Under the pieces are notes generated by a model, which was not told the DNA's origin, did no database searches, and saw nothing but the letters and a program-made list of their open reading frames with translations. This document shows positions 1,949 through 22,898 of a stretch of DNA of 22,898 nucleotides, one piece after another. Positions within the stretch are counted from its first letter, which is position 1. Each line of letters starts with the position of its first letter. The stretch covers positions 1-22,898 of IMG/VR virus record IMGVR_UViG_3300025890_000172; one strand, 5' to 3'. Origin of the DNA: a virus. The position numbers were made by a program, and so were the translations under genes.

Positions 1949-1957
1949 AGATGCATA

Positions 1958-1982: not shown

Positions 1983-1988
1983 ACGACG

Positions 1989-2174: not shown

Positions 2175-2180
2175 TCAACA

Positions 2181-2194: not shown

Positions 2195-2206
2195 ACCCAC
2201 ATTAAC

Positions 2207-2231: not shown

Positions 2232-2238
2232 CAGCACA

Positions 2239-2430: not shown

Positions 2431-2624
2431 CACCACAGCAATTCAGAGAGGCTCGGCATTCGCTGGGCCTCACCGTGCGTCAGCTATGCCATATCCTCGA
2501 CACCAACGAACGCAGCGTCAGGCGTTGGGAGGACGGCACTAGGCCCCCGAACCCTGTCGCATGTCGAGTGTTGTCTTGGCTGAAAGATCAAGGCTTCAGA
2601 CCACCTGAGTGGCCCCGCTCTTAA
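2427..2624 (+). CDS. Small XRE-type HTH regulator (Aca-like or minimal repressor)
   Basis: DNA-binding protein of 65 residues consisting of almost nothing but a helix-turn-helix. It reads MTPQQFREARHSLGLTVRQL, then CHILDTNERSVRRWEDG, then a short tail ending PPEWPRS. The LGLTxxxL...RSVRRWEDG pattern is the XRE/Cro-type HTH and resembles the small HTH proteins that close anti-CRISPR operons (Aca families of about 60-80 residues). It overlaps the upstream small gene by ATGA. The probable target is the dyad 1930-1942 in the promoter of its own operon, which would make it an autorepressor. It could instead be a Cro- or immunity-type repressor, since the phage has an integrase and no other repressor is visible. 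Its stop codon overlaps the stop of primase-helicase. Confidence 0.82.
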   Translation: MTPQQFREARHSLGLTVRQLCHILDTNERSVRRWEDGTRPPNPVACRVLSWLKDQGFRPPEWPRS

Positions 2625-4246: not shown

Positions 4247-4368
4247 GGTCTGCCCCGAAGCACTTTAGGTTTACGCACTTTCTTTGGCTTCTTTGGTTTG
4301 CGGTTGGGCTTAATCCCGCGCTGTAACTGCGCTTGGCGAGTGTATCTATTCGTCTGTGATAAGTTCAT
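4243..4368 (-). CDS. Short basic protein between endonuclease and primase-helicase
   Basis: Protein of 41 residues, MNLSQTNRYTRQAQLQRG followed by a strongly basic tail with KPNRKPKKPKK and VRKPK. The start at 4368 is preceded by TTGGGAGA with 7 nt between it and the ATG, a much better site than any farther upstream. The stop overlaps the primase-helicase start (ATGA). In T7 this position between genes 3 and 4 holds the gene 3.5 lysozyme, but this is not a lysozyme; the phage encodes a different endolysin in its late block. The charge suggests nucleic-acid binding. The function is unknown. Confidence 0.7.
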   Translation of the reverse strand: MNLSQTNRYTRQAQLQRGIKPNRKPKKPKKVRKPKVLRGRP

Positions 4369-4372
4369 AGCT

Positions 4373-4385
4373 TGGTCTCCCAACC
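4373..4385 (-). repeat. Shared translation leader, copy at the 41-residue gene
   Basis: The minus strand reads GGTTGGGAGACCA, identical to the leader of the integrase (9212-9224), and in both cases exactly 4 nt separate it from the ATG. The Shine-Dalgarno GGGAG lies in the loop of a weak TGGT/ACCA stem here. Confidence 0.6.
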
Positions 4386-4432
4386 ACACAAAGTAAAAGG
4401 GGCCATCCGTGAAGACAGCCCCTTGCTCTCGC

Positions 4433-4870
4433 TTATTCTGGCATTTGACACTCGGCCAGCCAGTCGTCAGGTATCCATCGATGTGCATACTTCCACCCGT
4501 GCTTGTCGCAGTACGCGGCGTATGTAGTCGGGGACCCTTTGTAGAGCTTTGCCCTTTGATTGCTGAAGACAAAGCGTATATCGAGGTCGGGCGATTGATC
4601 CTTAATCAGAAGATGTTTCTGTCGATCTTGGACGGGCCATAACCCTTTGGTTTCTATAAAAATAAAGCCGCCGTCTTTCTTTAGCAGCTTGAAGTCTGGG
4701 GTATACTTGGCACCCCGCTGTGGAACGATGTAAGAGACTTTGTCGGTCTCAAACAAAACCGGCAGTCCTGCTTGGGTTATCTGATCGGCGACCTTAGCTT
4801 CAAGGCCGCTTCGATAACCATGCTTGATACCGACGCGCTGGCGACGACGCTTAGTAGTCGAAGTCATCAT
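4433..4870 (-). CDS. T7 gp3-like endonuclease I (Holliday junction resolvase)
   Basis: Protein of 145 residues matching the phage endonuclease I family in length and motifs. The catalytic pattern of T7 gp3 (E20, D55, E65, K67) is present as E24 in YRSGLE, D59 in KYTPDF, and E73 and K75 in FIETKG. The N-terminus is basic (TKRRRQR). The enzyme resolves branched DNA and helps degrade host DNA. The gene overlaps the end of the SSB gene by 20 nt in another frame, so it is probably translated by coupling; the ATG at 4867 is an equally possible start because the first two codons are both ATG. The order SSB, endonuclease I, primase-helicase copies that of T7 genes 2.5, 3 and 4. Confidence 0.95.
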   Translation of the reverse strand: MMTSTTKRRRQRVGIKHGYRSGLEAKVADQITQAGLPVLFETDKVSYIVPQRGAKYTPDFKLLKKDGGFIFIETKGLWPVQDRQKHLLIKDQSPDLDIRFVFSNQRAKLYKGSPTTYAAYCDKHGWKYAHRWIPDDWLAECQMPE

Positions 4871-5411
4871 CTGGCAGACTATCGCCGCCTAGATCATCAT
4901 TATCGTTCTTAGACACCTTCGGAGCGACGTAGCCGCCTTCGACAGCATCAAAGCCTTCGCCATCATCGTCATCAAAGTCACCATCTGACAGCGACAAGAT
5001 TTGGACCTTGTTAAGGTTAAGATTAATGCCTCGATTGACCTTACTAAGCTCATAGTCACCGATAGTACCGACGACCTTGAGCTTTGATCCGCTATAGATC
5101 TTAGGCGCGTTGGCGAAGTGGATTGGCGTTGTCTGAGCATCGACGAACTTCGGCTCGTACTTAGTCTTTACTACGAACACGATATCGCCGGTATCGTCGT
5201 CAACTTTCCATGGCATCTTGAGTTTATCGACGCCCTTGGGACCGAAGGCTTCTTCGCCAGCCTCGAGGCACATAGTCATCAGAGGCTTGGCTGATTCTGG
5301 CGACATCATTAGCTGAGTCTTAAACTTGTCGTCTAAATCGTCAGGCTTGGTCAACCGAGGATATCGAGCGATACCTTCGGCTGATCTGAAGTTTACTTTA
5401 GTGTTTCCCAT
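4851..5411 (-). CDS. T7 gp2.5-like single-stranded DNA-binding protein
   Basis: Protein of 186 residues (T7 gp2.5: 232) located between the RNA polymerase and endonuclease I, exactly where T7 has gene 2.5. The body has the expected OB-fold-like mixed beta pattern (DIVFVVKTKYEPKF, SKLKVVGTIGDYEL). The C-terminus is an acidic tail ending DDDFDY. In gp2.5 the acidic tail with a terminal aromatic residue docks on the polymerase and helicase. The start at 5411 (MGNTKVNFRSAE) is preferred to a longer frame because AAAGGAA lies 9 nt upstream. The longer frame would run through the promoter-like repeat at 5446-5470. Confidence 0.9.
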   Translation of the reverse strand: MGNTKVNFRSAEGIARYPRLTKPDDLDDKFKTQLMMSPESAKPLMTMCLEAGEEAFGPKGVDKLKMPWKVDDDTGDIVFVVKTKYEPKFVDAQTTPIHFANAPKIYSGSKLKVVGTIGDYELSKVNRGINLNLNKVQILSLSDGDFDDDDGEGFDAVEGGYVAPKVSKNDNDDLGGDSLPDDDFDY

Positions 5412-5445
5412 GATCGGGGTTCCTTTCGCAGACTTTAGTGTCTGT

Positions 5446-5470
5446 AGCGGTACCCACAATTCAGAGTTGT
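5446..5470 (-). promoter_or_regulatory. Candidate phage RNA polymerase promoter, copy 1
   Basis: On the minus strand this reads ACAACT, 3 nt, then AATTGTGGGTACCGCT. It matches 9425-9449 at 22 of 25 positions, with 16 consecutive identical bases. It sits in the short gap between the RNA polymerase gene and SSB, the place of middle promoters in T7-like phages, and about 35 nt before the SSB start. A conserved A/T-rich block followed by GGG fits the single-subunit polymerase promoter style. Assignment to this polymerase is inferred. Confidence 0.55.
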
Positions 5471-5477
5471 CGAGTGT

Positions 5478-8282
5478 TCAACTAAAGCAGTAGCGACTGT
5501 CGAGGACCCCGTTGATGTCTAGGTCGCCCTTGGAAGGCATAGGTTTCTTAAGCTTGGCATCAGCATTCGCAAGCTGCTCACGCACCTCAGTCTCGAGACG
5601 TTCAAAGAAGCAACAGCCACCATAGATATCGACAAAGACCTGACGCACTAAGTGATACATAGCGTCTGTGTCGGCAGCTTGCGTGGCAAAACTGTCATGG
5701 ATCATAAAGAAGTCGTTGATGCCCTTGCCTGAGTCCAGCATAGCGCAGATCGTAAGCGCCATGTGGGCTGCATCAGCAGCATGGATCAGGTTGGGCGACG
5801 CAGAATTCGATGCCTTGCGACTGTCGATCTCGTCGTGTCTATCCTCGACCATCGTGATCTGGGACCGCTTGTAAATCTTAGCCTCTCGATCCCACAGAAA
5901 CACGCGCACCCTCATCCGCTTGGTCTTCTGATACCTCTGGAACACGGGAAAGCCACTGACTGACGTCGAGCGCATAACCTTGTTCTCTTTGCTCAGAGCC
6001 TCCGACAGACCGCGCAGGTAATCCATAGCGCCCGAGACTGACTTGAGTGTTTCGCGGATGGTTTCGTACTGGATGTTTGCAAGGTACCGAGCAGCGTCTC
6101 TCTGCACATGGTCGTCGCCAAAAGGGTGCTTTTTGATTTCGCGATAGGCTGCTTTGCGCTCAAGCGGGACCATGAAATCTTCCATTAGCTGGTCGTACAT
6201 TCCGTTTTGGTTGCTGCTATAGCCGAAGGTCATTGTGGACCTTTTGCACACCGTCCGCGTGATGCCAAAGTCCAGCCAGAGACGCGCCAGATCACCCAAA
6301 GTCGGAGTGTACCCACGCTCAATTACGTTGCCATCCCTGTCGGTCTTAATCGCATATGGCAGCGTCTTGTCGCTCGTCAAATCCTGCTTGACACGCTCCT
6401 CGACCGCCTTGGCTACGACCGCATAAACATCCTGACAGGCGTCGTCTGGGACTAAGTTAACGAGGTATCCATCGACAGCGTTAAGCGTGGCCGCAGCATA
6501 GTGCTGAGTGCCGCTGTTGGTGCCATCTAAGCTTGGCGGCAAGTGGCACACGTACCCTGCGCCGTGATCGCAGTACTCAGCGTAGGCCACGACTGCGGCC
6601 AAGAATTGGAACGGCTTATCGGCTCGGGACCAATCACCGAAGCTGGCTTTAAAATCCTCGGCGCAGGCAATCAATTGATCGTGGTTATCATCTACCCAAG
6701 CCACGCGGTCCTCGAAAGAACGCTTGCTGATCTTGTCAAAGTCACCGCAGTTCGCAAGGTGGACCTTGATCCACTTCGGATCTGTGATGGCCTTGCCTCG
6801 AGCAAACTGAAACATTGCTTTAATGTGGTCAGCGCGGTGGTAGTTAAACGTGGACAGCATGTACATGCGCCCTCTGAAATCGAGGTTCCACGGTGTGTAG
6901 AACTGATCGTAACCTTGCATATCACGCGCAGTCTTAAGATCGCTGTTCATACAGTGCCGGTTTGCCACGACCTCCCGCCGCTTGAGGTGCCACTTCCGTA
7001 GACCAGCGCGATGCTGTGATTTGACCTTGTCGCTTAGGCCCTCGTAATCTTCGGGGAGCACAGGCCTAGGAGGGGCTTCGGCTGCAGGGAACTTCTTGAA
7101 CATCTTGGCCTCGTCCCAGCACCATTGTACCGCATCGACGACAGTGTCGTTTATTTTAAGCGGTGTTGCTTGTAGGGCATTGACAGCTCTGACATAGGAA
7201 GGCTCACCAGCGGCCATGTCGGCCTCGACGGCGCGTCGTTGAGCGCCTGTTGCGCCACGGACAAGGCTAATGTCACCGCCTGCACTTAAGTCGGTCAGGT
7301 AGCCGCCGTCAGTAAACGTAGTCCAAGGGATTGGAGGCACAACCATCGGCTGGTAAACTGGAGCCATCCAACGGGCATCCATGTCATTGTCTTCGAGTAG
7401 TTGCCGAGCCTCGGGTGTCAAATCGATGAACCGCTTGGACTTCGTTGCCGACACATACTCAGTAGTGACTTGGAAGATATCAGTGCTGCTGAGTACAGAG
7501 TTAATGACGAAGGTGCCAATGACAGCCCTGTCTTTCTTTCTCAGCTTAGAATGCGAGGCCAGCGTCGTTGATGGCTTGTAGCCCTCCTTGGTGGCAATGT
7601 GCCTGATGGCCTTCTGCCGGTATCTCAGCGCCGAGTGAGCTTTGGTGACTTGCGCCTCGACCCGCTTCGCCATCACCTTGTCGAAGGCAAGAAACTCGGC
7701 CCACCACGCCTGATGCTCGATAGCTTTGCTGATGCGAAAGCCAATGGAGTCTATGCCTGACGTGAGTGAGCCTTGTGAGCCGACCGCATCCATCATTGTA
7801 CTAAGGCCTATGAACGCCAACGTCTCAGGTGCGTCTATGTCTTTAGCTATCTTGACCCACAGTGGTGGAGCGCCTGCGCCTGCAACAGCATGTCTGAGGC
7901 TATCTTGGATCGCCTGAGCTACGTGGCCTACAACGCCTTCGATTAGCTTGTGTGGCTCGTTTGCTTTCGAGTACGACGCGACACCTGTAATGTTGCCGTC
8001 TTCGTCGTACTTTGCTCCTGCCTGTGAAGCCTGCCTGCTGATGTATCTGTCGTGACCTATATCGGCCATCTGTTGTTCTCGTGCAATCTGGGTCTCAACG
8101 AGCGAGGCTGGCGGGGCTTTGTTTGGGTTGAGCCACGATGAGACTGGTGCCACGCCGACGCTGCCTTGGCCTACACTTCCTTCGTGGGCCGGTGCTACAA
8201 TGTTAGCATCGACACAAGCTTTAACGTCCCTTGACCATCCTTGATGCGAGGTGTCGCCGGTTCTTTGATAATCGTTAACCAT
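5478..8282 (-). CDS. T7-type single-subunit RNA polymerase
   Basis: Protein of 934 residues (T7 gp1: 883) that would transcribe phage genes from its own promoters. The catalytic signatures are clear. D586 lies in SLDGTNSGTQH (T7 D537). K680 and Y688 lie in CKRSTMTFGY, with the same 8-residue spacing as T7 K631 and Y639. H862 and D863 lie in MIHDSFAT (T7 H811, D812). The start at 8282 (MVNDYQRTG) is chosen because GGGAGA lies 7 nt upstream; a longer frame would overlap the integrase. The integrase stop is only 4 nt upstream, so integrase and polymerase are almost certainly one transcript, an arrangement known from integrase-bearing marine T7-like phages. A promoter-like repeat follows immediately downstream. 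Confidence 0.97.
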   Translation of the reverse strand: MVNDYQRTGDTSHQGWSRDVKACVDANIVAPAHEGSVGQGSVGVAPVSSWLNPNKAPPASLVETQIAREQQMADIGHDRYISRQASQAGAKYDEDGNITGVASYSKANEPHKLIEGVVGHVAQAIQDSLRHAVAGAGAPPLWVKIAKDIDAPETLAFIGLSTMMDAVGSQGSLTSGIDSIGFRISKAIEHQAWWAEFLAFDKVMAKRVEAQVTKAHSALRYRQKAIRHIATKEGYKPSTTLASHSKLRKKDRAVIGTFVINSVLSSTDIFQVTTEYVSATKSKRFIDLTPEARQLLEDNDMDARWMAPVYQPMVVPPIPWTTFTDGGYLTDLSAGGDISLVRGATGAQRRAVEADMAAGEPSYVRAVNALQATPLKINDTVVDAVQWCWDEAKMFKKFPAAEAPPRPVLPEDYEGLSDKVKSQHRAGLRKWHLKRREVVANRHCMNSDLKTARDMQGYDQFYTPWNLDFRGRMYMLSTFNYHRADHIKAMFQFARGKAITDPKWIKVHLANCGDFDKISKRSFEDRVAWVDDNHDQLIACAEDFKASFGDWSRADKPFQFLAAVVAYAEYCDHGAGYVCHLPPSLDGTNSGTQHYAAATLNAVDGYLVNLVPDDACQDVYAVVAKAVEERVKQDLTSDKTLPYAIKTDRDGNVIERGYTPTLGDLARLWLDFGITRTVCKRSTMTFGYSSNQNGMYDQLMEDFMVPLERKAAYREIKKHPFGDDHVQRDAARYLANIQYETIRETLKSVSGAMDYLRGLSEALSKENKVMRSTSVSGFPVFQRYQKTKRMRVRVFLWDREAKIYKRSQITMVEDRHDEIDSRKASNSASPNLIHAADAAHMALTICAMLDSGKGINDFFMIHDSFATQAADTDAMYHLVRQVFVDIYGGCCFFERLETEVREQLANADAKLKKPMPSKGDLDINGVLDSRYCFS

Positions 8283-8286
8283 GTTC

Positions 8287-9207
8287 TTATCTCCCGTTTG
8301 ATGTGTTGTTATTGCTAAACCTTCTTCCCATAGCCGCGCCGACGTCTGCCGCCGCATCTCCCTTCACATGCACGTAACCTTCGGTGGTTTTGAGCGACTT
8401 ATGCCCTAGGAGACGTGCGATTAATATTGTGTTGATCTGTAGGTCGTTTGCCATCGTACTGGCCGCTGTGTGGCGCAGGCTGTGAAAGACAAACGATTTG
8501 TCATTTGGTGCGACTGCCTGACGTGCGGCCCTCATCGCGTCGTAAAACGGGTGCTCTTCAAAGTGACACGACGGCTCATTGCTAAGGTTCTCAAGAGCCT
8601 CAAGCACCGCCTCGTTGGCAGGCACCCGCCGGTCATCGCCGTTCTTTGTTTGCTCTAACACTAGCCACGCACCATTTGCATCGTGCTCGATGTTGTCGGG
8701 GTCCAAGCTGCGGATCTCTCCGAGCCTCATGCCTGTATTGATCCCAATGACTACGAACTCTTTGACCCAGTAGTAATCAGACGGCAGGCCACCAAGAAAC
8801 TTAAGCAAAGCATCTAACTCGCGGTCGCTCAGGAAACGACGCTTGTGCTGCTCATGCTTGCTGATCTTGCGGAACTTTACCCGAGGGGCCTGCTGTATAA
8901 GACCCATTTCTTCTGCATGTCTAAAGACCGAAGAGAGACAGGCAACGTACCGATTGGTAGTCGCTGGTGAACATCCATGGGGCTTACGTGGCGTCTGCTC
9001 AGTTTCAATGTGAGCCATAAACTCATAAAGATGTTGAGATCTGAAAGAGTCAAGTCTTTGTTTGCCATAGTCTGAAAAGGCGCAAAACCTCCGCATCTTC
9101 GCAAGGGACTTTTTCTCATGAGCCCCGCCGCCCCAGATAATACGCGAGTGCGTGGCGACAAAGTCAGCTAGCGTCACAGTTGATTTGCGTGCGCTGTCAT
9201 TGGTCAT
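8287..9207 (-). CDS. int: Tyrosine-recombinase integrase
   Basis: Site-specific recombinase of 306 residues with the full catalytic set: R161 (GMRLGEIR), K188 (EQTKNG), H242 and R245 (FHSLRHTAA), H269 (LLGHKS) and nucleophile Y278 (TEGYVHV). The N-terminal part (about 1-105) is the SAM-like core-binding domain. It would recombine the phage attP with a host attB. The start at 9207 is preferred because GGGAGA lies 7 nt upstream; a frame open to 9336 would read through the tRNA-like attachment site. It is directly upstream of the RNA polymerase gene. No excisionase is recognisable; the HTH protein at 2427-2624 is too far away to assume that role. Confidence 0.96.
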   Translation of the reverse strand: MTNDSARKSTVTLADFVATHSRIIWGGGAHEKKSLAKMRRFCAFSDYGKQRLDSFRSQHLYEFMAHIETEQTPRKPHGCSPATTNRYVACLSSVFRHAEEMGLIQQAPRVKFRKISKHEQHKRRFLSDRELDALLKFLGGLPSDYYWVKEFVVIGINTGMRLGEIRSLDPDNIEHDANGAWLVLEQTKNGDDRRVPANEAVLEALENLSNEPSCHFEEHPFYDAMRAARQAVAPNDKSFVFHSLRHTAASTMANDLQINTILIARLLGHKSLKTTEGYVHVKGDAAADVGAAMGRRFSNNNTSNGR

Positions 9208-9211
9208 ATCG

Positions 9212-9224
9212 TGGTCTCCCAACC
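9212..9224 (-). repeat. Shared translation leader, copy at the integrase
   Basis: GGTTGGGAGACCA on the minus strand, identical to 4373-4385 and likewise placed 4 nt before the ATG. It contains the ribosome-binding site that decides the integrase start. Confidence 0.6.
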
Positions 9225-9278
9225 CAGTGGTAATCTGAGAGGCCCAATATATACTAATGTTTTCAGCAACTTCCGCGG

Positions 9279-9314
9279 CGTGCGTCTCCGCGAGGGAGTT
9301 ACAGTCCCCTGCCA
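9279..9314 (-). other. Putative attP core: tRNA-Tyr(GTA) fragment
   Basis: On the minus strand GGGGA, CTGTAAC, TCCCT (9309-9293) forms a 5-bp anticodon stem with a 7-nt loop. The loop has U33, anticodon GTA and a purine at 37, as in tRNA-Tyr. It is followed by CGCGGAGACGCACG (9292-9279), which has the GCG/CGC stem of the long variable arm of bacterial tRNA-Tyr. It is preceded by GTGGCA, which fits the end of the D arm. No T arm or acceptor stem follows, so this is a fragment and not a working gene. Phage integrases often use the anticodon region of tRNA genes, and this lies 72 nt upstream of the integrase start. Confidence 0.62.
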
Positions 9315-9370
9315 CACCTTGCGGCCTGTCGCCCAAACTTTAGTAACACTGGGTCCAGCCCTGTAATCGC

Positions 9371-11772: not shown

Positions 11773-12381
11773 TCAATCCGCGTAGATGGCGCTGGGACGC
11801 ATCACTTGGATCGACCCTGCTTGTGCCGCCTCGTTGGCTTGCTCTTGTTCTTCGGCGAGGAACTGCGAGTACTTCTGCTCGAAGATAGGCCCACGCTCAT
11901 CAAGGAAATAGTCGGCGGCATATGACAATGCTGAGTACATGATCAGGTCAGCGGACGTAGCTGCCAGAGCGTTCTCGTCGGTGTCTGCTGTCATGGTGGC
12001 GAACGGTCCATAGTAGCTCACGTTGACCGTGCCACTACTGGGCTCGGGAAACAGCAGTATCGTGGTCCCTTGCTGAGTAAAGTGCAACGACGTCCCAGCT
12101 TGGCCGGTGGCTTTCATCTCCAACATCTCATGCAAAGGAACACGGGTCAGGGCGCTGTTGTTGTGGTAGATGTCTATGACCTCCAAGGCGGTCGCAGGCA
12201 GGGCGATAGACGCCGTTTGGCTGCTGATCGCATAGGTCTGGATGGCCTCCATTGACGGAATGCGGAGGACACGCTGGATGCGAGAGATGCCCTGATCGAT
12301 GAAGGTGTCAGCCAGAGTGCTCGTGCAGTCACTGCGATTGAGCAGCGCCTTGAAGTGTGTTCGAATGGCACCTTTGTTCAT
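11773..12381 (-). CDS. Head-tail adaptor protein
   Basis: Protein of 202 residues that resembles the adaptor (connector ring) proteins that dock below the portal in short-tailed phages. It has an N-terminal helical region (GAIRTHFKALLNRSDCT, FIDQGISRIQRVLRIPSMEA), a beta-rich middle (IALPATALEVIDIYHNN, VNVSYYGPF) and a C-terminal helical bundle (YFLDERGPIFEQKYSQFLAE). This order and the place two genes after the capsid support the call, but the family assignment is from memory of similar phages. AAGGAA precedes the start. Confidence 0.7.
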   Translation of the reverse strand: MNKGAIRTHFKALLNRSDCTSTLADTFIDQGISRIQRVLRIPSMEAIQTYAISSQTASIALPATALEVIDIYHNNSALTRVPLHEMLEMKATGQAGTSLHFTQQGTTILLFPEPSSGTVNVSYYGPFATMTADTDENALAATSADLIMYSALSYAADYFLDERGPIFEQKYSQFLAEEQEQANEAAQAGSIQVMRPSAIYAD

Positions 12382-12384
12382 GGG

Positions 12385-12702
12385 CTAGTTCCTTTTGTTC
12401 GTAGCCATAAAGTAATCAAGGCTTTGATCGCGGAGCCTTTTGACAATCTCTTTGGCGCTGTGCTGGTAGAGGTCGAAGCCTTCGCGGAGCCACTGCTCGT
12501 GAACGGCAACGGGTATCGATGCCACGCGCTGGAACTCTTTTTCACGGGTGTTATCCGACGCATTTCGGCTGTCTTGTAAGTCATCCATAAAGGCGGGGGT
12601 GATCTCTTGGGTATGCTTAAAGGTAACATTGTTGCCCTCTTGCAAATACTCGGTCTCAACGCCCAGCAAAGTGCGGGCGGGCTTATTAGTATCTTTTGTC
12701 AT
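12385..12702 (-). CDS. Small conserved head-module protein of unknown function
   Basis: Protein of 105 residues lying between the major capsid and the adaptor genes. The C-terminal half (SIPVAVHEQWLREGFDLYQH and KRLRDQSLDYFMATNK) looks like a compact helical domain I associate with a small gene at this place in related phages, which supports it being real. The start at 12702 has no obvious Shine-Dalgarno sequence, which is odd for this otherwise well-marked operon. It ends 3 nt before the adaptor start. The function is not known. Confidence 0.68.
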   Translation of the reverse strand: MTKDTNKPARTLLGVETEYLQEGNNVTFKHTQEITPAFMDDLQDSRNASDNTREKEFQRVASIPVAVHEQWLREGFDLYQHSAKEIVKRLRDQSLDYFMATNKRN

Positions 12703-12737
12703 GTGTGGGGGGTGCTCGATTTGTTGCTCGTAGGTAG

Positions 12738-12801
12738 GAAAAGAAGACGGCGAGGCAGCGAAGTAAGGAGAGCAGCCAACCTTCGCTGGTGCTCCCCGCC
12801 G
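12738..12801 (-). terminator. Possible terminator after the major capsid gene
   Basis: A long imperfect stem-loop on the minus strand has CGGCG pairing with CGCCG (12797-12801 with 12748-12752) and CAGCGAAG pairing with CTTCGCTG (12781-12788 with 12756-12763). It is followed by the T-rich stretch CTTCTTTTC. It falls in the 119-nt gap after the capsid stop codon. T7 has its main terminator (Tphi) right after its capsid gene, so the position fits, but the internal loop and broken T-run make it weak. Confidence 0.4.
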
Positions 12802-12821
12802 ACTTCAAACTTTAAGTGATC

Positions 12822-13041
12822 TTAGGACAGGCCGGTGATCATGTGGCTGTCTGCAAAGCTCATGTGCTTACATGAGATCTCGGCCACAATCTGGTGCCTG
12901 TCGGAATCGCCATTCTTGGCAAGGAGCGTGCGTGTGTAAGGACGCAAGACCACTTGCTTGAACATCGACGGATCGATGAGGAAGGCGTGGGTCGTAAGCT
13001 GGTGACGGTTAAGTACGACTTTGTACTCACCGAACGGACCA
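12822..13041 (-). CDS. Major capsid protein, exon 2 (C-terminal part)
   Basis: This 220-nt stretch has no start of its own. In the frame set by splicing it encodes GPFGEYKVVLNRHQLTTHAF and continues to a natural end at HMITGLS and TAA. It is the C-terminal domain of an HK97-fold capsid protein of the kind found in SU10-like phages, where I recall a YVxxFGxxKVVxNR stretch near this point. Joined after base 13041 to exon 1 it finishes the split valine codon (GT plus T) and restores one frame. The total, 665 plus 220 nt, makes 294 residues. Read without splicing, it would be lost, because exon 1 runs into a TGA in the intron. A possible terminator follows. Confidence 0.86.
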
Positions 13042-13306
13042 CGGGTTCTTCAACTAGGGTCGTTAATCCTAGCCCGTTCCTCGTAGGAACTGCCCATACT
13101 TTAGCATGGGACGAGACTATATCATATCAGCGTGTTGCTGATCTCTGCGCTTCCACTCACTTGAGTGTACTCCTCGAAAGGATAGTCGTTGCACCTTCCC
13201 TCACATTAGTAAGGGCTTGGCTCAGGATTGCCATATCTCTTGATTGAGACTTAGGGTTTCCCTGAGTTCACAGAGTTTAATGTACGCTTGTCGAGTTCAT
13301 CAGTTA
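13042..13306 (-). ncRNA. Group I self-splicing intron (T4 td-like, IA2 type) in the capsid gene
   Basis: A 265-nt intron with all key elements. P1: exon end TGTACGT (13313-13307) pairs over 7 bp with the guide GCGTACA (13287-13281), giving the required U-G pair at the 5' splice site. The core has GGCAATCCTGAGCC for P4/P5. P7 is GACTAT (13187-13182) with ATAGTC (13120-13115), in the contexts AACGACTATCC and GATATAGTC. Between them are P7.1/P7.2-like hairpins, one with a UUCG loop, and a P8-like hairpin ATCAGC/GCTGAT. P9-type hairpins follow (CCCATGC/GTATGGG, GTTCC/GGAAC, CTAGG/CCTAG). GGATTAACGACC and the 11-nt end TGAAGAACCCG match the layout of the T4 td intron as I remember it. The last base is G (13042). 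No homing endonuclease is encoded. Confidence 0.92.
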
Positions 13307-13971
13307 ACGTACAGGTCGATCACATTGACCAAGGTCTTGGTGCTTGCGAACTCACGGTTACGCCCAGAGGCGGCTGTGAAGCCTGCAATGATAAGACCGT
13401 CCGCTGGCTTGACCATAAGCACAGACGGATCTGAGCCTTTCTCAAATGCGTCTTGGCCTGCTACGAGAAGCTTGGCTTCTGTAAGCGGATCGGTTGAACC
13501 TGAGCCAGCATCAGTGCTGTTTGTGATCATCTGATCAATCGAGGCCATCTTACGAGCCGCAGAGGCAGTGCCTGTGACTGCAGCCTGAGATACACCAACG
13601 AATGCCCGCTCCTGATCGCGCTTGATTTCCTTCAGAGCTTTGCCCATCTGGTACGCAGTTTCCTTCGCACGACCATAGGTCTTGATCGCGTCAGCAGTTG
13701 CTGAGATTTGGAAGGCTTTGGTTAGGATCTGAGTGACGTTAGACCGCATAGTTGTTGGCGAGAGTGTCGCCATAGATGCGTCTGCCCCTTCAATTGCAGC
13801 GTTGACCGCTGCGCTTGCAAGGCTGTCCTCTTGCCATTCAAAGACACGGGCGTGTGTCTTCTCAGACTTCATCAGAGTTGACATTGGGGTGTCGGTGGGG
13901 GTGATGTCGGTTATGATGTCCGAGACATCTTCCGCTTTCCCAACCTGATTGTAGGTAGTATAAGTAGCCAT
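13307..13971 (-). CDS. Major capsid protein, exon 1 (HK97 fold, SU10-like)
   Basis: N-terminal 221 full codons plus two bases of the major capsid gene. It begins MATYTTYNQVGKAEDVSDII and continues with typical features of this capsid group: TDTPMSTLMKSEK followed by EWQEDSLA, the ISATADAIK region and a long E-loop/spine region with GKALKEIKRDQERAFV. The exon ends at IDLYV just before the intron; unspliced translation would stop 2 residues later at TGA 13302-13300, giving a 223-residue truncated protein. A strong AAGGAGGT lies 6 nt before the start. It follows the scaffold gene, the usual order. The full spliced product of 294 residues with exon 2 would form the icosahedral shell. Confidence 0.9.
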
Positions 13972-13999
13972 TGAGCTACCTCCTTCTTAGTGCTTTGGG

Positions 14000-15070
14000 T
14001 TATTGCTCCCAACGCGCTAACAAGGCCTCCGCGATGTCATCAGCATCACCGTTTCTCGATGGATTAGTTCGCAGCATTTGCTGGGCCTTCTTGGCTCGGC
14101 GTGCTGCGCTGTCATCTGAGACGGGTGATTTGGTTGACCTAAGTATCTTCTTACCCTTGTTGCCATCCTTGGCCCTGATGACCTTAGACTTCGCCTTCTT
14201 GGTTTCGGCGGTAGCCTTAGTTTGGTCGTAAAGTCGGGCCTTGTTTAGCAACATGATTACCTGTGGATCGACGTATTGATCGACTTGCTCTTGGGGTAAT
14301 CCTTGGGACACAGCATATGACCTGATGTCGTTGTACAGGTCGTTGCCCCAGTCGGGCATTTGGCTCTGAAGAACCTTTACGCATTCTGACGCGGCCTGTT
14401 GATGCAGCACTTTCTGCTGGTCTTGGGCATCGCGGTAAAAGGCGTCGGCCTCTTCTTTGAGGAACTTTAGGTCGGCTTCTGCGTCTTTGGCTTCGGCCCT
14501 GAGCTTTGCAAAATCATCGGCATCCATCTGTCGGCTAGCGACTAACATGTCCACCTCAGTATAAGGCTTGGCTCGGGCTTCTGCTCTTTCGAGAAGCTTC
14601 TGGTAACTGATGTCTGCCTTTTGAAGGGCAGCGTCGGCCTGCTTGCGCGTGGCAGCGAGGTCTTGAGACTTTCGTGTCAGGCTGGCTTCTTGGCCGTGCA
14701 ATCGTTTCAAAGCCGCGATGGATACCCGCTGCGTTTCCCCGTCTACGATGATTTCGACCTCAGTATTGTCATCTATTGACAACTCTACTTCTTCTTCGTC
14801 GGTTTCATCGGTCTCGGGTTCTTCGCTTTCTTCGGGGTCCTCTTCGTCCTCTTCGTCGGTCTGCTCGGTCTCGTCATCCTGATCTTCGTCAGACGTATCC
14901 TCAGGTGTCTCATCTTCGTCTTCTTGTTGAGGGTCGTCTGTTGCCTCTTCATCCTCTTCGGATAGGGTTTCCCCGTCCTCCCAGCGACTAAGAATGGCGT
15001 CCGCAGCGTCATCGGCATCGAGGCTGCGTGGTTGAGAATCTTCGTTTATTTGCACGTTGTTATTATCCAT
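14000..15070 (-). CDS. Capsid scaffolding protein
   Basis: Protein of 356 residues immediately before the major capsid gene, with the composition of a scaffold. Residues about 32-100 are almost entirely Asp and Glu with Thr/Ser. There follows a folded patch (VEIIVDGETQRVSIAALKRL) and a long coiled coil (about 125-240) rich in Ala, Lys, Glu and Gln. The C-terminal third is basic (TKKAKSKVIRAKDGNKGKK). Scaffolds guide capsid assembly and leave before or during packaging. Oddly, the motif DADDAADAILSRWE (18-31) recurs as DADDIAEALLARWE at the very C-terminus (342-355). The start at 15070 follows the stop of the upstream small gene by 4 nt. Confidence 0.85.
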   Translation of the reverse strand: MDNNNVQINEDSQPRSLDADDAADAILSRWEDGETLSEEDEEATDDPQQEDEDETPEDTSDEDQDDETEQTDEEDEEDPEESEEPETDETDEEEVELSIDDNTEVEIIVDGETQRVSIAALKRLHGQEASLTRKSQDLAATRKQADAALQKADISYQKLLERAEARAKPYTEVDMLVASRQMDADDFAKLRAEAKDAEADLKFLKEEADAFYRDAQDQQKVLHQQAASECVKVLQSQMPDWGNDLYNDIRSYAVSQGLPQEQVDQYVDPQVIMLLNKARLYDQTKATAETKKAKSKVIRAKDGNKGKKILRSTKSPVSDDSAARRAKKAQQMLRTNPSRNGDADDIAEALLARWEQ

Positions 15071-15074
15071 GGTG

Positions 15075-15341
15075 CTACTCGTCCTCTCGACGGCTGTCGT
15101 CTATGGTGCGGTCATTGATTTCATCGCGGATCGACACCCATTGTTTTAGTGTGTTTGCCACGTCAACTAAGGAGCGATAGTGGCGGTAGTTTAGCTCTCG
15201 TCCTGCGCTGTCATCGGGGTCGGAGTTGACGTATGTTGTAAACGTACCTTCGACCAACGTGTTGACGCAGGCATTGAATGCAGGGCTTGCCAATAGCGCC
15301 TCTGCCTCGTCACCTTGCGTGACAAGTTCTTCTTCAGTCAT
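15075..15341 (-). CDS. Small protein between portal and scaffold
   Basis: Protein of 88 residues, acidic, helical, without membrane segments. It begins MTEEELVTQGDEAEALLASP and contains ELNYRHYRSLVDVANTLKQW. The ribosome-binding site AAGGAGA lies 8 nt before the start. A small gene at this location is common in related podophage head modules; it may be a minor head or packaging accessory protein. I cannot assign a function. Confidence 0.72.
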   Translation of the reverse strand: MTEEELVTQGDEAEALLASPAFNACVNTLVEGTFTTYVNSDPDDSAGRELNYRHYRSLVDVANTLKQWVSIRDEINDRTIDDSRREDE

Positions 15342-15367
15342 AGTGTGCTCTCCTTAGGGGTAGTGCC

Positions 15368-17395
15368 TTAGCCTGTTGGCGAGGCTATCGCTCGGACATC
15401 AGTTGCTGTCTTCGCAATCTCTAGCTCGGCTGTATCCACCATAACCTTGTGGTCTAGCTGGCTTTCTTTCAGGTCTAGGTTGTCAGATTGCATGGCAAAG
15501 CTCTGCTGTGCTTTCATGCTATCTAGCTCAAGTTTCATTTGTGCCATCTGCGCGTCCATTTGCTGCTTGGCCTCGGCTAGGGCGGTCTGACGCTCTTGGA
15601 TTTGCATCTGCTGTTGCTGCATTTGCATTTGCATCTCTTGCATCGGATCTGGCTGTGGTGGCGGCAGTTGCTCAGGCGGCGTGAGATAGTCTTGGACGTT
15701 CTTAATGCCTGAGTTCTCCATGACGTGCGACATGAGCTTGTATTGGTTCGGCGCTTGATACATGGACGACAGGGTCGGATCTTGCGACATGAGCCCGTGC
15801 AGCGCAAGATACTTCTGCGCCTCTTGTTCTTGTTCGCCGTAGCCGAGGTGCATCTCAACAGTGACATCGCGCTTGGATGCCCACTGAGCGGGGCTGATCT
15901 GCACGTAGTCACCTGCCAATTCAACGATCTTCTCGTCGGTCTCATTCTCGACACACAGTTGGTACACAAGCTGATACAAGGGCCGCAGGAAGTTGTTTGC
16001 GAAGTTGCGGGCGATGATCTTCTGGCGTTGCTGACTCATTGTTGCCAGTTGCTCAACCATAGCGGCTGAGTTCTGTTTGCTGACTGCGTCTTTGTTGGTG
16101 CCTTGGCTAAGACGGCTTACGCCCGTGGTGTCCTCTTTGTCTTCGTCCAACATCTGGATTGTATTGAAGATAAATGGGTTCAAAGGCGCTTGCTGCATGG
16201 GCACAATAGCGTCAGGTCTAGTAACATTGACAATGCCACCGACGCGACCATCGATAAGCTCACGCGGGTTGGTGACGCCGCCTTTCGTGACCACGTATCG
16301 CGGGTTGTTGGTGATCATCGCGTGGTCAAGGATAGACCTTGTGAGCACCGTGCGGGCGTTCTGAATGGGCACGACCTTGCTGGCGAAGTTGTTGCCCCAG
16401 AATGAATGCGGTATTGGCAACGGCGTGAATACAACGAATGGCTTGCGGTTCACGCGCTCCTGCTCAAGCAGGACATTGCCAGCCTTGACCAAGCGGTAAA
16501 GTTCAGCTTCGCCGGTGCCCTCGACATCAAGCATCGTGTAGCACTCGTAACAAGTAACCGATCTTACCTGATCTTGGTATCCGAAGGCGTTGAAGCCTCG
16601 GTCGCTGCCGATCTCCTCGTGCCGCGCTAAGACCTCTGGATCAGTCTCCATCTCGGTGTCTTCATGGTCGCCTATCTTGTCGATCAGTTCCTCGTCGTAG
16701 CCCATCTGTCGAAGCTCTGAAATGGTCTTAGTTGACCGGTGAGCGCAGAATAGGACGTCATCGAGATCCCGTGCTTGCGGCTCAATCAGGAACTCCTCGG
16801 GAGCGACGTTCTCAATAACAACCTGAGAGGTGTCTTGCGTCACGCGAATGTCACCGGAGTAAAACCCGAGGCTTTCTTCGATCTCTTCGATCTCGGTGTT
16901 TTCCTCGGCAAGCACGGCGTCAAGCTCGTCCTCAGTCAGATCCTCGACGTATTCTAGGTGGCTCTCTGTCTGCTCTTTCCAGTAGACGCGGACAATGCCG
17001 CAGCGGGCAATGAGGCCGTCGTGGATTGCTGTGCTCATTACAGAGTATAGGTCGTTCTGCCTGTGAGCCACGTAGTCGGTGTATTCTGTGCAGACGTCAG
17101 CCATCTTAACGTCGTCGGCGTTTTGTGGGGAAAAGCGTACAGTCTTGTTGCCGCTGGCGAAGGTCTCAAGCAGCGCAGCTTTCATTGACTCTACGCTGTC
17201 ATAGACGTCCATCGAGACATAGCTGCTGTTGCCGTCGTGGGCTTTCTTTGGAAGCGTGGCGTTGTAGTAGTCTACAGCTTTCTTGCGCTCACGGCTGATC
17301 TGGCTGTCGTAGTAGCCGACGGATCTGCGGATGTTGGCATCAAGGATCTTAACGATGCCCTCGTCGTCCAACTTCTTATAATCTTTCGTTTGCAT
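15368..17395 (-). CDS. Portal protein
   Basis: Protein of 675 residues between the large terminase and the scaffold. It looks like the long portal family of P22/SU10-type podoviruses and not the T7 gp8 head-tail connector. The N-terminal clip/wing region has NSSYVSMDVYDSVESMKAAL and RCGIVRVYWKEQ. The centre has PIPHSFWGNNFASKVVPIQN and ARTVLTRSILDHAMITNNPR, the typical portal stretch preceding the crown. From about 560 the C-terminal extension is a Gln/Met-rich coiled coil (QEMQMQMQQQQMQIQERQ) that resembles a portal barrel. A dodecamer would form the DNA channel at one vertex. The start is 5 nt after the TerL stop, so translation is coupled. Confidence 0.9.
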   Translation of the reverse strand: MQTKDYKKLDDEGIVKILDANIRRSVGYYDSQISRERKKAVDYYNATLPKKAHDGNSSYVSMDVYDSVESMKAALLETFASGNKTVRFSPQNADDVKMADVCTEYTDYVAHRQNDLYSVMSTAIHDGLIARCGIVRVYWKEQTESHLEYVEDLTEDELDAVLAEENTEIEEIEESLGFYSGDIRVTQDTSQVVIENVAPEEFLIEPQARDLDDVLFCAHRSTKTISELRQMGYDEELIDKIGDHEDTEMETDPEVLARHEEIGSDRGFNAFGYQDQVRSVTCYECYTMLDVEGTGEAELYRLVKAGNVLLEQERVNRKPFVVFTPLPIPHSFWGNNFASKVVPIQNARTVLTRSILDHAMITNNPRYVVTKGGVTNPRELIDGRVGGIVNVTRPDAIVPMQQAPLNPFIFNTIQMLDEDKEDTTGVSRLSQGTNKDAVSKQNSAAMVEQLATMSQQRQKIIARNFANNFLRPLYQLVYQLCVENETDEKIVELAGDYVQISPAQWASKRDVTVEMHLGYGEQEQEAQKYLALHGLMSQDPTLSSMYQAPNQYKLMSHVMENSGIKNVQDYLTPPEQLPPPQPDPMQEMQMQMQQQQMQIQERQTALAEAKQQMDAQMAQMKLELDSMKAQQSFAMQSDNLDLKESQLDHKVMVDTAELEIAKTATDVRAIASPTG

Positions 17396-17399
17396 TCGG

Positions 17400-18980
17400 C
17401 TATACCATTTCTATGTAGTGATCGTCTGTTGATTCAATAGGCTCCCAAGCGCCCTCGTGGATGTGGTTGGCTAAGGCCAGCGACATGACGCAGTCGTCAA
17501 AGCAACCAGACTCGGCTTCCATCGCGCCGCTTTCGGTCACAATGTACGTGAGCATCTCGCGGATCGTGACCTTGCAGTTAAGCTCTAGCTCGTCGTCTCG
17601 GTGACTAGCTCGTAGCTGATCGATGATTAAAGGCTTGGTCTTGGAGGTCGTTGTGAAACCCAGCTTCACGGTCTCGCGGTCTGTCAGCTTATCAACTTGG
17701 ACTTCTGTGTAGAAGTTAGGATAGGCCATGTCTTTGCCGAGCCGCGTACACGTCAGGATACCGTGACTGTTGTTCTCAACGATAATAAGCGCCTCGTTGT
17801 AATACTCGCCCAGCGCATAGAGCACAGTCGCAAAGTAGTCTGGGTGAACGTGAGACCGCCACACAGCGACCTGACGTTTCTTGCTGTCGAGGATCTGAGC
17901 GCAGGAGTAGTCACCGCCGCGCACGCCCATCGAGACGTCAGCGCCAATCACGTACTGTTCACCGTCAACGTGTGGCCGGTAGATTGACAGTTCACCTCGA
18001 GCGTTGTCCAGCCAGTCGTCGCCCTCAAGGGCCAGCCGTTGCTGAAGCTCTTCAGTTTCAGACAGGCGAGACAGGAGCTTGTCAGGATTAAACACTGGGC
18101 GCCCAGTTGTCAGGAACGCCTCGTCTGGGTAGCTCGGGTACTCCTGCCGAAAGAGGTCTAGGCCGTTCTGCGCGACCTTGCGACGACGAAACATAAGCTG
18201 CTCGTCATCGAGGTCATACTCAGCAGCGAGGTCTTCCTCGTCGGGGGTGCGCTCGAAGTTGTCGGGGACGGGCTCACGATAATCGGGGTCTGTAAACCAC
18301 GCTATGAACACAGGGACGAACCCGTTGGTCCCATCGACGGCGCCTTTCCAGAGGTCGTAGAAGATACCCGAGATGCCATTGGCGGTGCTCTCCACAAAGA
18401 TAGCCGTGCCGTTAGTGTTAGGCACAGCCTGCGTAAGACCATTCCAGTTCTCAAGGGCCGTAGACTTCTGCCAGAAGGCAAGCTCAGATGCGTGAACGTG
18501 GGTCAGAGTCTCGCCCCGACCAATGGACTCACCGCCTGCTGTCGCGACCACAAAGCTGCTGTCGAGCACGTCGAAGCTAAGTTCGCGACGGGAGCTATAC
18601 TTAGTGTGAGGCTTCAGTATCTCAGGACAGTTCTCGTGATATCGCTTGGTCATATCGAAGAGGGCGCGAGTACTGTCTGAGTGGTGCGTGACAACCATAG
18701 CCTTGGAGGCGTTACGTTGGGAGACGCTGAAGTAGAGATAGCCACCAGTATACGTTGACAACCCTTGCTGACGAGCTTTGAGAATGATGATCCTGACCTT
18801 GCCCTCGCTGGTTAGCTGTGCTTCGACGGCATCGTTTAGGATGGTCTGGGCGTTGTTTAGTTTGAGCGGCGCAATCTCACCCGCCTTGGTACGGATCTTG
18901 AGGGCGCTGGGCGCATAGAAGCTGAAGTCATTTAAGAGGCGTTTCCTCACTTGCACCAATTTGGGGTCTAATGCTGTCAT
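17400..18980 (-). CDS. terL: Terminase large subunit
   Basis: DNA-packaging motor of 526 residues. The N-terminal ATPase has Walker A LKARQQGLST (67-76) and a Walker B with its glutamate in THVHASELAFW, followed by the coupling motif IFVESTANG. The C-terminal nuclease has an RNase H-like fold with acidic residues in VIGADVSMGVRGGDYS, IIVENNSHG and CFDDCVMSLALA. It would cut concatemers and pump DNA through the portal encoded just downstream. The start overlaps the end of TerS by 53 nt. Confidence 0.95.
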   Translation of the reverse strand: MTALDPKLVQVRKRLLNDFSFYAPSALKIRTKAGEIAPLKLNNAQTILNDAVEAQLTSEGKVRIIILKARQQGLSTYTGGYLYFSVSQRNASKAMVVTHHSDSTRALFDMTKRYHENCPEILKPHTKYSSRRELSFDVLDSSFVVATAGGESIGRGETLTHVHASELAFWQKSTALENWNGLTQAVPNTNGTAIFVESTANGISGIFYDLWKGAVDGTNGFVPVFIAWFTDPDYREPVPDNFERTPDEEDLAAEYDLDDEQLMFRRRKVAQNGLDLFRQEYPSYPDEAFLTTGRPVFNPDKLLSRLSETEELQQRLALEGDDWLDNARGELSIYRPHVDGEQYVIGADVSMGVRGGDYSCAQILDSKKRQVAVWRSHVHPDYFATVLYALGEYYNEALIIVENNSHGILTCTRLGKDMAYPNFYTEVQVDKLTDRETVKLGFTTTSKTKPLIIDQLRASHRDDELELNCKVTIREMLTYIVTESGAMEAESGCFDDCVMSLALANHIHEGAWEPIESTDDHYIEMV

Positions 18981-19785: not shown

Positions 19786-22700
19786 TTACGCGGCGAACTG
19801 TTGCTGTGACAGCGCACCGGCTTGAGGTGACAAAGCACCGGCAGGCATCTGTTGTTGTCTCATTTGCTCTTCCTCTTCTTCCTCGGTGCGGCCGTTGAGC
19901 AGCATGGCTAGAACCACGGCGACTATGGTTGCGAAGGGGTAGCTAAAGAATTGGATGCGCGGGTTCTGGGCGTTGCGAAACTGCTCTTGTAAAACCTTTG
20001 CCGTAAGCGGCATCACCTTCTTTGCAAGCTTTGGGTTTGCAAGGTACACCCAAACAGGGTCTACAGCGATTTCTTTAAGGCTTCGGATGTAAGTGCGGTG
20101 GTTATCAAGCTTCTTTTCGTGGTCTTTAAATACTTGCTGCATAAAGTTATCTTCAGCGAAAGCCTTGGACCCTATCAGCTCCGCAGTATTCTTTTTCTCT
20201 TCTTCAAAGAACTCTATTGCGGAGGCAAGAGTGCGTATTTCTCGTTTTTGCTGCGGGTTGTTTTCTAAGTAAACTTTAACCTTGTCCTGTAGGTTTATAA
20301 GCTCTTTGACGATAGCACTTTTGTTCTTTGCGCCTTCTATTTCCAAATAGGGCAGCAAAGCACTCTCAAAACTACGGCTATTGTAACTAGTACGTTGCCC
20401 AGTCAGATCATTGTAACCTTTGGCATCAATCTCATTTGTAAAACCAAAGCCAGAGGGACCCGTGGCGATGCCGTGGCCGATTTCATGTAATAATGTGGTG
20501 ACGCTATATAAATCAGTTATCACACCAAGCTTGGGCGCAACCGCGTTTGGATTTAAACCCCATACGGTGCCCTCTTGATTGGATTGTCCTCGCCTAAATG
20601 CACCCCGTACCATTTCGCTATTAGACTGACCATAATCAGAAATCATTGCTTTTTGGTCATCAAACATTTTAACGGTGATATTTAGAGCCTTCGCAAGCGC
20701 AAGCGCCGTGTCGATGTCTTGAATGCCGTTCTCGTACTTGGTGCCCTTCTTACCAATTTCAAAGACTGCACGTAACTCGGGAAGCTGTGCTTTTACCTGA
20801 TCGGGTGTAGCAGGCTGGGAGCCGAGCATCTTGTTGACGAGCGACTTCATATTAAATGGGGATTGCTGTTGCGGCTGCTGGGCAGGAGGGGTCGCTAGGA
20901 CTCCAGTATTCCCTTGTTGGGCGAGGTCTTGGTCGAAGGATTGTCCTGCATCGGGACCGGCTGGCCCTCGTCCTCCGCGTCCATCTCCGCTAAGAGATCC
21001 CAGTCCGTCTCTTTGCTTAATTGCTTCGACGACTTTTCGAGCAGCGTTGGCGTAATCAGGCGCATCATCGTCTTCGTATCCACGGCTCTCATTCCCTTCG
21101 GTTTGCTTTGCTGTATCATATAGGCGCTTCTCAGGATACCACAACAGGGCCTGTAGGTCACTCATAGTTAGCTGTTGATTGCTGTTTTGGCGTATAGCAG
21201 GCTCGTCCTGTAGGCGTCCAAGAGCGCGGGTAAATACCTCACGGATGAAATTACGCTCTGCGGCACCTTTTGGAGCCTCTTGCTGCCCGTCTAAGTAGCC
21301 CGACAAACCGTTGCCAGATTTGCGTATCTCAGGGCTTAAAAGGTTAAGCACCTCGCGCCATGCTGGGTCCATAGACAGCTTGGCTGTAGCCTGTGCAAAA
21401 GCGTTTAACTGCGCGACAGACATATTGGGTTTTATGGTTACAGGCGCTTTAGAATAAAGCTTACGAAGCACCCGACGCTCGGCGTTTGACAGCCCATTGA
21501 TCAGGTCTTTGATCTCGCCGCGTTTCTTCTTTTCCATAGCAGGGTTTGGCACAACCAAAGTACCGCGCCAACGTCCGACAGTCCGCATAAGCCAGCGGTC
21601 CATCGTGAGAGCGTCGAAGTTGCCATATAGATTGCTAAAGAAACCGTTGCCGATCTTTGGCCCAAGTATTGAGGCACCGCGAACAAGGGTTCCCTTGCCT
21701 TCGCCGGTGACATCAACTTTGTATTCTTTTTCTATTGTTCGCACAGGTACCTGTGAGTTCATAAAGTCCGCAAGCCGTACATGGTCACCGTCAAACTTGT
21801 CGAGCATTGTGTGGTACATTTTTAGACCACTGTTTATACCCTTGGCTGCGGTCCCTATGCCTGCCTTGCTTGGGAAACGACCTGTGCGCTGCAAAGTCTC
21901 ATAGACCTCGGCAGCTAATTCAAAGTTCTTGTCTACCTTGAGGCCATTAGACGTCACAGCCAATGCCCAAACAAACTGGAGCTTGTGCTTAGGGCTTGTG
22001 AGTACTTCGGGGTAGACTTCGCCCAATGTCTCTAGGGCCTCGGTAACGGTGCGATCATACCAACCAATGGCATTCTGGTTGTCTTTGATTGCTTCCAAGG
22101 CGTCCGCGTAAACAAAGTCAGCCAAGCGATCAATGTTCTCTGGGGTGACCTGTGTCAGATCAATGCCTGCGCTTTTCTGCGATGCTAGTGATTTGGCTTG
22201 CAGATCAAGCTTAAAATCGCGGCCCTTGGTGTAAACCTTGCGGCGGGCGAAATCAAAAGAACGTGCAAGGCTGTTCTCTAGTGGGGTGCCACTGACTTCT
22301 CCAGTTGGGACGTTGTCAGTCAGCGCAGGCTTAGATGCGTCGAAGTCCTCGTCAAACGCCAGATCGGTGCCGCCGGTGCTTGTCGGGGGCTGCTGACGAC
22401 GGCCACTGCGGGCTTGCTGTCTCAACACACGTTCAACGTAAGGCATGATGTGTCGGTTGATTAGGCTTTCGCTGATGCCGTCGGACTTGAGCTTGCTGAC
22501 GACATCCATAGCCGCCACTGCGGGGTCACTGCCAAGGTTATATTGCAGTTCATCGAGGGCAGTCAGCAGTCTCCCGCGCTCGGCAGGGGTCAGGCTTTTG
22601 TTTGCTGCAAGGCCTTGGCGCAGTTTCTCAAGCTGGGCGCGGTTGTCATCGATGCCCTGTTGCACGGCTGGACTGCGGCCCTGTGGCTGCTGTTGCTGTT

Positions 22701-22898
22701 GGGCGGTGCCTGCTGATGACTGGGCTGCGGAGGGTCCGAAGCCTGCGAGGCGGCGTTGGTTGTGGGCATCGTTGCCATCGGGTTCAGCGATACGCAGACC
22801 ATCAATGGTGGCATCAGAAGACAGCACACTGTTAAGAATACTGATCCAATCGGTGAGGCCTGTGATCTGGTTGTTTTCGCCTGCCAAGTTGCGGCGGG
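19786..22898 (-). CDS. Giant virion/ejected protein with HEIGH metallopeptidase motif (5' end outside window)
   Basis: At least 1036 residues; the frame is open to the right edge, so the N-terminus is missing (a TTG at 22887 could be read as a start but has no visible support). Numbering from that TTG: 55-180 is Gln-rich and linker-like, and 240-560 is helical with LTMDRWLMRTVGRWRG. Next are a Gly/Pro/Gln-rich linker (about 640-680) and a zinc-peptidase-like domain with TLLHEIGHGIATG (H801 region, bases 20473-20487). After that come a long charged helix and one transmembrane segment (about 978-999, ATIVAVVLAMLLNG). The tail has a run of six Glu and is Gln-rich. Multi-domain proteins of this sort in podophages are internal virion (polyvalent) proteins injected with the DNA. 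The peptidase role is inferred from HExxH only. Confidence 0.78.
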   Translation of the reverse strand, partial: RRNLAGENNQITGLTDWISILNSVLSSDATIDGLRIAEPDGNDAHNQRRLAGFGPSAAQSSAGTAQQQQQPQGRSPAVQQGIDDNRAQLEKLRQGLAANKSLTPAERGRLLTALDELQYNLGSDPAVAAMDVVSKLKSDGISESLINRHIMPYVERVLRQQARSGRRQQPPTSTGGTDLAFDEDFDASKPALTDNVPTGEVSGTPLENSLARSFDFARRKVYTKGRDFKLDLQAKSLASQKSAGIDLTQVTPENIDRLADFVYADALEAIKDNQNAIGWYDRTVTEALETLGEVYPEVLTSPKHKLQFVWALAVTSNGLKVDKNFELAAEVYETLQRTGRFPSKAGIGTAAKGINSGLKMYHTMLDKFDGDHVRLADFMNSQVPVRTIEKEYKVDVTGEGKGTLVRGASILGPKIGNGFFSNLYGNFDALTMDRWLMRTVGRWRGTLVVPNPAMEKKKRGEIKDLINGLSNAERRVLRKLYSKAPVTIKPNMSVAQLNAFAQATAKLSMDPAWREVLNLLSPEIRKSGNGLSGYLDGQQEAPKGAAERNFIREVFTRALGRLQDEPAIRQNSNQQLTMSDLQALLWYPEKRLYDTAKQTEGNESRGYEDDDAPDYANAARKVVEAIKQRDGLGSLSGDGRGGRGPAGPDAGQSFDQDLAQQGNTGVLATPPAQQPQQQSPFNMKSLVNKMLGSQPATPDQVKAQLPELRAVFEIGKKGTKYENGIQDIDTALALAKALNITVKMFDDQKAMISDYGQSNSEMVRGAFRRGQSNQEGTVWGLNPNAVAPKLGVITDLYSVTTLLHEIGHGIATGPSGFGFTNEIDAKGYNDLTGQRTSYNSRSFESALLPYLEIEGAKNKSAIVKELINLQDKVKVYLENNPQQKREIRTLASAIEFFEEEKKNTAELIGSKAFAEDNFMQQVFKDHEKKLDNHRTYIRSLKEIAVDPVWVYLANPKLAKKVMPLTAKVLQEQFRNAQNPRIQFFSYPFATIVAVVLAMLLNGRTEEEEEEQMRQQQMPAGALSPQAGALSQQQFAA

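Follow-up and report, generated by a model that had tools for sequence, protein, structure and literature searches.

Single introns in phage capsid genes are already known. In mycobacteriophage LittleE a probable group I intron interrupts the major capsid gene, and its splicing was shown by RT-PCR and protein sequencing (PMC3706429), while the same paper cites lactococcal phage Tuc2009, whose capsid gene likewise contains a group I intron. In Delta and Zeta crAss-like phages the gene for the major capsid protein (MCP) is broken up by group I introns, into as many as five pieces (PMC7886860). Short group I introns (about 206 nt on average), many per genome, have been described in Jug phage, where metatranscriptome reads back 37 of the 76 tested (PMC12363816). 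Outside phages, fungal nuclear rDNA contains group I introns at many sites of one very abundant RNA, and ectopic moves via reverse splicing have been proposed for them (PMC1299323).

The intron described here is located in the MCP gene of a virus record of 22,898 bp (referred to below as the window, i.e. the whole stretch of DNA that was analyzed). It resembles the LittleE intron in being a group I intron of a major capsid gene, but the latter is about 819 bp long, contains an HNH gene, occupies one site and resides in an unrelated HK97-type capsid gene of a phage with a Gram-positive host. The Tuc2009 intron, a single case that is likened here by its cited description, is likewise a capsid group I intron. 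The crAss-like MCP introns were spotted via encoded endonuclease or intron domains (PMC7886860), whereas the window family is ORF-less; moreover, many core genes of those crAss-like genomes are interrupted by introns and inteins, whereas the relatives of the window contain introns only in the MCP gene in the records searched. Jug phage introns are short, like that of the window, but they are spread over terL, nrdD and DNA polymerase, in a genome that has many endonuclease genes (PMC12363816). Fungal rDNA introns also occupy multiple sites in an abundant RNA, but this is a eukaryotic structural RNA and not a phage mRNA (PMC1299323). A search of the open-access literature identified no report of ORF-less introns of one family that occupy many positions of a single capsid gene and also occur across capsid families.

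A similar intron is present in a deposited complete phage genome, that of Phage C72C1 (accession no. OQ984150.1; locus L202, positions 3666–4867), where a group I intron (81.8 bits) is located between two ORFs of the major head gene. Aligned over 93% of the length of the window intron, it shows 74.5% identity. Unlike in the present analysis, the C72C1 gene was annotated as two “major head protein” ORFs and the intron was left unannotated.

Capsid gene of the window and its intron

The MCP ORF of the window (13971–13300, minus strand) ends at a stop codon at position 13300. The first-pass annotation had proposed that the missing C-terminal part of the protein is encoded downstream, and that the 265 nt in between have group I architecture. 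Exon 1 (13307–13971, minus strand; 665 nt, 221 codons plus 2 nt; 3′ end ...CTGTACGT) matches positions 3–220 of the SU10-type major capsid profile PF17236, and exon 2 (12822–13041, minus strand; 220 nt including the stop codon) alone matches positions 222–291 (58 bits). As predicted, exact joining of 13971–13307 to 13041–12822 (665+220 nt) generates an in-frame protein of 294 aa. Against PF17236 the truncated ORF scores 183 bits and this spliced product 260.8 bits, the latter being a full-length match to the profile (residues 5–293 of 294). A full-length capsid protein is encoded by 52 of 52 intron-free relatives; homologs naturally ending at IDLYVN, considered in the first-pass annotation, were not found among them.

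The intron (13042–13306, minus strand) was the only element detected in an Rfam covariance scan of the whole window, which gave a single match, at 13328–13093, to RF00028 (68.6 bits, the gathering score being 50; E 9.3e-16; model positions 1–253). A stop codon occurs in frame soon after the 5′ splice site. The two closest relatives of the window (L002 and L003; MCP protein 98–99% identical, DNA about 92%) have an empty site at this position and contain introns elsewhere, at residues 19 and 56, respectively. When they were aligned with the window by blastn, the alignment ended at 13306 and resumed at 13041, so that exactly 265 nt were skipped and both intron coordinates are exact. Since the contig is metagenomic, an assembly chimera or a sequencing artifact might be suspected, but introns at the same site (after residue 222) are present in 37 loci of the set described below, many of them from different samples, and the boundaries coincide with the predicted splice sites, which makes such an origin extremely improbable.

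All of the splice elements named in the first-pass annotation were recovered, each on the minus strand. The exon sequence UGUACGU, ending with the splice-site U (P1 5′ strand, 13307–13313), pairs with the internal guide sequence GCGUACA (P1 3′ strand, 13281–13287), whose first G faces the splice-site U, to form a 7-bp helix with a terminal U·G. The strands of P7 are GACUAU (13182–13187) and AUAGUC (13115–13120), and the last intron base, the omega G, is at 13042, the boundary being set by the relatives. Four of five pairs are formed in P10, the same count as proposed before.

Taken as a whole, the 265 nt are very probably (probability of roughly 0.93) a functional self-splicing group I intron of the MCP gene, splicing being inferred from structure, conservation and the exact empty sites. 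The capsid pre-mRNA would fold around the intron, the 7-nt guide would hold UGUACGU, guanosine would attack directly past this sequence, and the joining of exon 2 would restore the 294-aa capsid protein. Without splicing, the capsid mRNA would give a 223-aa fragment.

The head module of the window is of the SU10 type (portal, scaffold, MCP and adaptor). The window also encodes T7-like replication and transcription functions (single-subunit RNA polymerase, family A DNA polymerase, primase-helicase and endonuclease I) and an integrase. These T7-like genes and the tyrosine integrase gene, fused with the SU10-type head module (71–9336 and 11773–18980), constitute a hybrid genome, in which 71 nt (8287–8357) are shared by the reading frames for RNA polymerase and integrase. 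An ORF of 1033 aa (19786–22887), for which Pfam and PHROG searches gave no match, possibly encodes a large internal virion protein. Directly past the capsid stop codon (12740–12815, minus strand), inspection by eye identified an inverted repeat rich in G+C and then a T-rich stretch; a simple terminator scan did not flag this repeat. Immediately past the capsid gene there is also a gene of approximately 105 aa (12385–12702) without a Pfam match, and nearly all relatives have an ORF of similar size 3′ of their capsid genes.

Structure and distribution of the related introns

The secondary structure was tested on an alignment of 43 same-gene introns (that of the window and 42 related ones), each with 8 exon bases. 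The structure drawn from the window intron comprised P1, P3, P4, P5, P6, P6a, P7, P8 and P9, two helices between P7 and P3 and two more helices, with P3 and P7 bracketed separately. Across the alignment 92.4% of cells were paired. Two-sided changes numbered 502 (146±11 in shuffles), and the covariation score was 0.494 (0.157 in shuffles). When the partners were slid by 1–3 columns, pairing dropped to 30–41%. Compensatory changes were observed in P3 (100% of cells paired), P7 (98.8%), P4 (97.3%) and P8 (85.7%), and the P3–P7 pseudoknot covaries. The two paired elements in the interval between P7 and P3 (82–99% of cells paired), corresponding to P7.1/P7.2, suggest that the window intron is group IA-like. 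P1 was paired in only about 70% of cells, a value attributed to misalignment by MAFFT of guides belonging to different sites.

These data bear on the reading in which the intron is degraded and either the capsid gene is defective or the 223-aa truncated protein is in use, as the in-frame stop soon past exon 1 might suggest. None of the helices is disrupted, covariation is seen in P3, P4 and P7, exon 2 has been conserved in the correct frame, and the intron-free relatives encode the full protein. A broken or truncated capsid was rejected on these grounds and is very unlikely.

Related introns were collected by two IMG/VR searches, with the spliced capsid protein and with an intron-core pattern (some contigs were found in both). 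At an identity threshold of ≥50%, 122 capsid loci were kept, the window included; the contigs of the relatives are metagenomic and mostly fragments. Introns were located by protein-to-DNA spliced alignment, and splice sites were set by protein fit and a rule demanding U before the intron and G at its end.

This analysis revealed 96 introns in 70 of the 122 capsid genes, at 15 positions of one gene (residues 7, 16, 17, 19, 23, 25, 51, 56, 59, 60, 87, 107, 116, 222 and 225). Because splice sites were chosen by rule, sites with a single example are less certain than 222, 107, 19 and 225, and the placement of site 16, like that of the L081 intron at site 25, appears doubtful. One intron is present in 48 genes, two in 19, three in 2 and four in L083 (1–1700; after residues 19, 51, 116 and 225), a gene cut by the contig end. 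The related introns are 232–308 nt long (median 256), and every one has an in-frame stop. The longest open frame in any of the 79 distinct introns is 63 codons, hence the earlier description of the intron as lacking an ORF holds, and no endonuclease ORF was found inside the introns.

The guides match the sites that the introns occupy. In a swap control with 79 introns, 62 formed a better P1 with their own exon than with the exon of any of the 14 other sites (mean score 13.3 with the own exon and 6.7 with those of other sites). The mean for P10 (78 introns) was 3.63 of 5 pairs with the own exon 2, compared to 1.82 with exons of other sites. At site 222 the exon sequence TGTACGT is present in 33 of 33 intron-bearing genes, compared to 7 of 74 intron-free genes, a contrast for which the nominal Fisher value is too strong, since the genes are related and not independent.

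No introns were detected elsewhere in the genomes by RF00028 searches of 50 whole records, which gave 31 matches in 23 records, all in the MCP region. A preference for insertion at unusually conserved residues was not supported (mean 0.78 compared to 0.76; permutation p 0.23). Among distant SU10-type capsid genes, two or three nearby group I introns each were observed in L100, L155, L103, L174 and L192, and two each in L154 and L135.

Occurrence of the intron family in capsid genes

IMG/VR was also searched with an intron-only pattern, GAGCCAAGCCN{6,24}GGAAGGTGCAACGACYAT, built from MCP introns. At least 127 matches were obtained, and by sequence search 102 of the 127 matches listed adjoin capsid genes: 52 of this clade, 12 distant SU10-type and 38 in PHROG capsid families (3437, 1357, 371, 334, 283, 9953 and 10). 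With four loci added by hand (L095, L132, L193 and L100), 106 of these 127 (83%) are capsid-associated, a figure biased by the derivation of the pattern from capsid introns. The rest of the matches listed are in genes for DNA polymerase, ribonucleotide reductase or RNA polymerase beta, or in unassigned genes. In one RNA polymerase beta-subunit gene, on a 180-kb phage contig (L114, 4449–7610), two matching intron cores are accompanied by an HNH endonuclease.

For a second core variant, capsid genes account for about a quarter to a third of cases, and many of its introns, found in mixed genes, bear endonucleases. Since this variant is less capsid-bound, a preference for capsid genes is not merely a general property of phage group I introns. 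The window intron is a member of a mobile, mainly capsid-located ORF-less family that has inserted at 15 or more sites of the gene.

Gain, loss and route of spread

Mapping of intron presence onto the capsid tree gave 17 changes for site 222, 11 for site 107 and 8 for site 19; these counts are approximate, as some forks are weakly supported, and sampling was enriched for introns by the pattern search. Both presence/absence polymorphism and lateral transfer at one site were observed. The capsid coding sequences of L165 and L071 are 99.9% identical, and L165 has one extra intron. Conversely, intron identity greatly exceeds that of the coding sequence in L123 and L074 at site 222 (96% vs 61%), in L191 and L096 (98% vs 68%) and in L061 and L144 at site 225 (93% vs 69%). 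Overall, introns have been transferred between MCP genes with a DNA identity of only 61–70%.

Movement between sites is indicated by kinship of introns across them. Introns of sites 7 and 25 are 94% identical in the core, and those of sites 25 and 59 are 87% identical. Site 56 introns are nested among those of site 225 (joint group support 100/99), and site 107 and 222 introns are intermixed. The intron tree requires 23 site changes, the minimum possible being 14, with poor support in its 107/222 part. Introns that have swapped sites have guide classes in common (GGGY, GCGG and GCGUA). In this podovirus group the capsid introns have been repeatedly gained and lost, have moved laterally to the same site and have occasionally settled elsewhere, at sites compatible with their guides.

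As for the route, the introns may have spread by reverse splicing into capsid mRNA, which is abundant, with subsequent reverse transcription and recombination, a possibility to which we assign somewhat less than even odds. The lack of an endonuclease match in the records searched, the short exon identity and the site changes are what one would expect if the introns reverse-spliced into an abundant late mRNA. The results on empty sites and guides do not single out this route, because any route leaving a spliceable intron fits them.

A real group I intron could also have spread at the DNA level, an explanation that differs solely in the route and that is likewise a serious candidate, if short of an even chance. 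It supposes homing by an endonuclease that acts in trans (from other phages or hosts) or has since been lost, with double-strand-break repair, and ectopic sites arising from rare illegitimate events. Such homing would account for the clustering of same-site lineages and their crossing between divergent MCPs. Furthermore, related phage introns of isolates are often near HNH genes, in DNA metabolism genes, and the second core variant occurs in mixed genes with many endonucleases. Against it, endonuclease profiles found no match in the records searched: HNH_3 and GIY-YIG in 19 relative records, HNH and LAGLIDADG_1 in 12 (some records about 40 kb), and HNH_3 in the window. Nor was there an endonuclease-sized gene beside the MCP gene that is specific to intron carriers; as candidates for a free-standing endonuclease, only the gene of approximately 105 aa and small ORFs were found there, in intron-bearing and intron-free phages alike, and they were rejected.

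Exon identity beside the transferred introns can be read in two ways. At site 222, exon identity is 95% and 88% within 12 nt and near background farther out, so that the extra identity is confined to about 12 nt on each side, and long co-conversion tracts were not seen there; at site 225 it extends to about 30 nt. These short stretches are equally compatible with co-conversion, as DNA homing would leave, and with selection on P1/P10. The return to near background by 12–30 nt nevertheless speaks against homing, and site-specific cleavage hardly explains kin introns at different sites.

Returning to reverse splicing, we tentatively suggest, with considerable reservation, that the window intron represents an ORF-less capsid-specialist family that spreads at the RNA level without a homing endonuclease. 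Excised introns would insert by reverse splicing into the late mRNA of highest abundance, at short guide-matching sites, and would then be converted to DNA again, both inside a single gene and between phages and unrelated capsid families. Phage group I introns have been viewed as endonuclease-borne elements favoring genes of nucleotide and DNA metabolism, a preference termed mysterious (PMC12350094). In contrast, the gene favored here is that of the capsid, with 15 sites, and no endonuclease of the families searched for was found. Standard annotation splits the capsid genes of such phages, as in C72C1, and they may consequently be overlooked as marker genes. The near-isogenic natural alleles make the long-proposed spread by reverse splicing testable.
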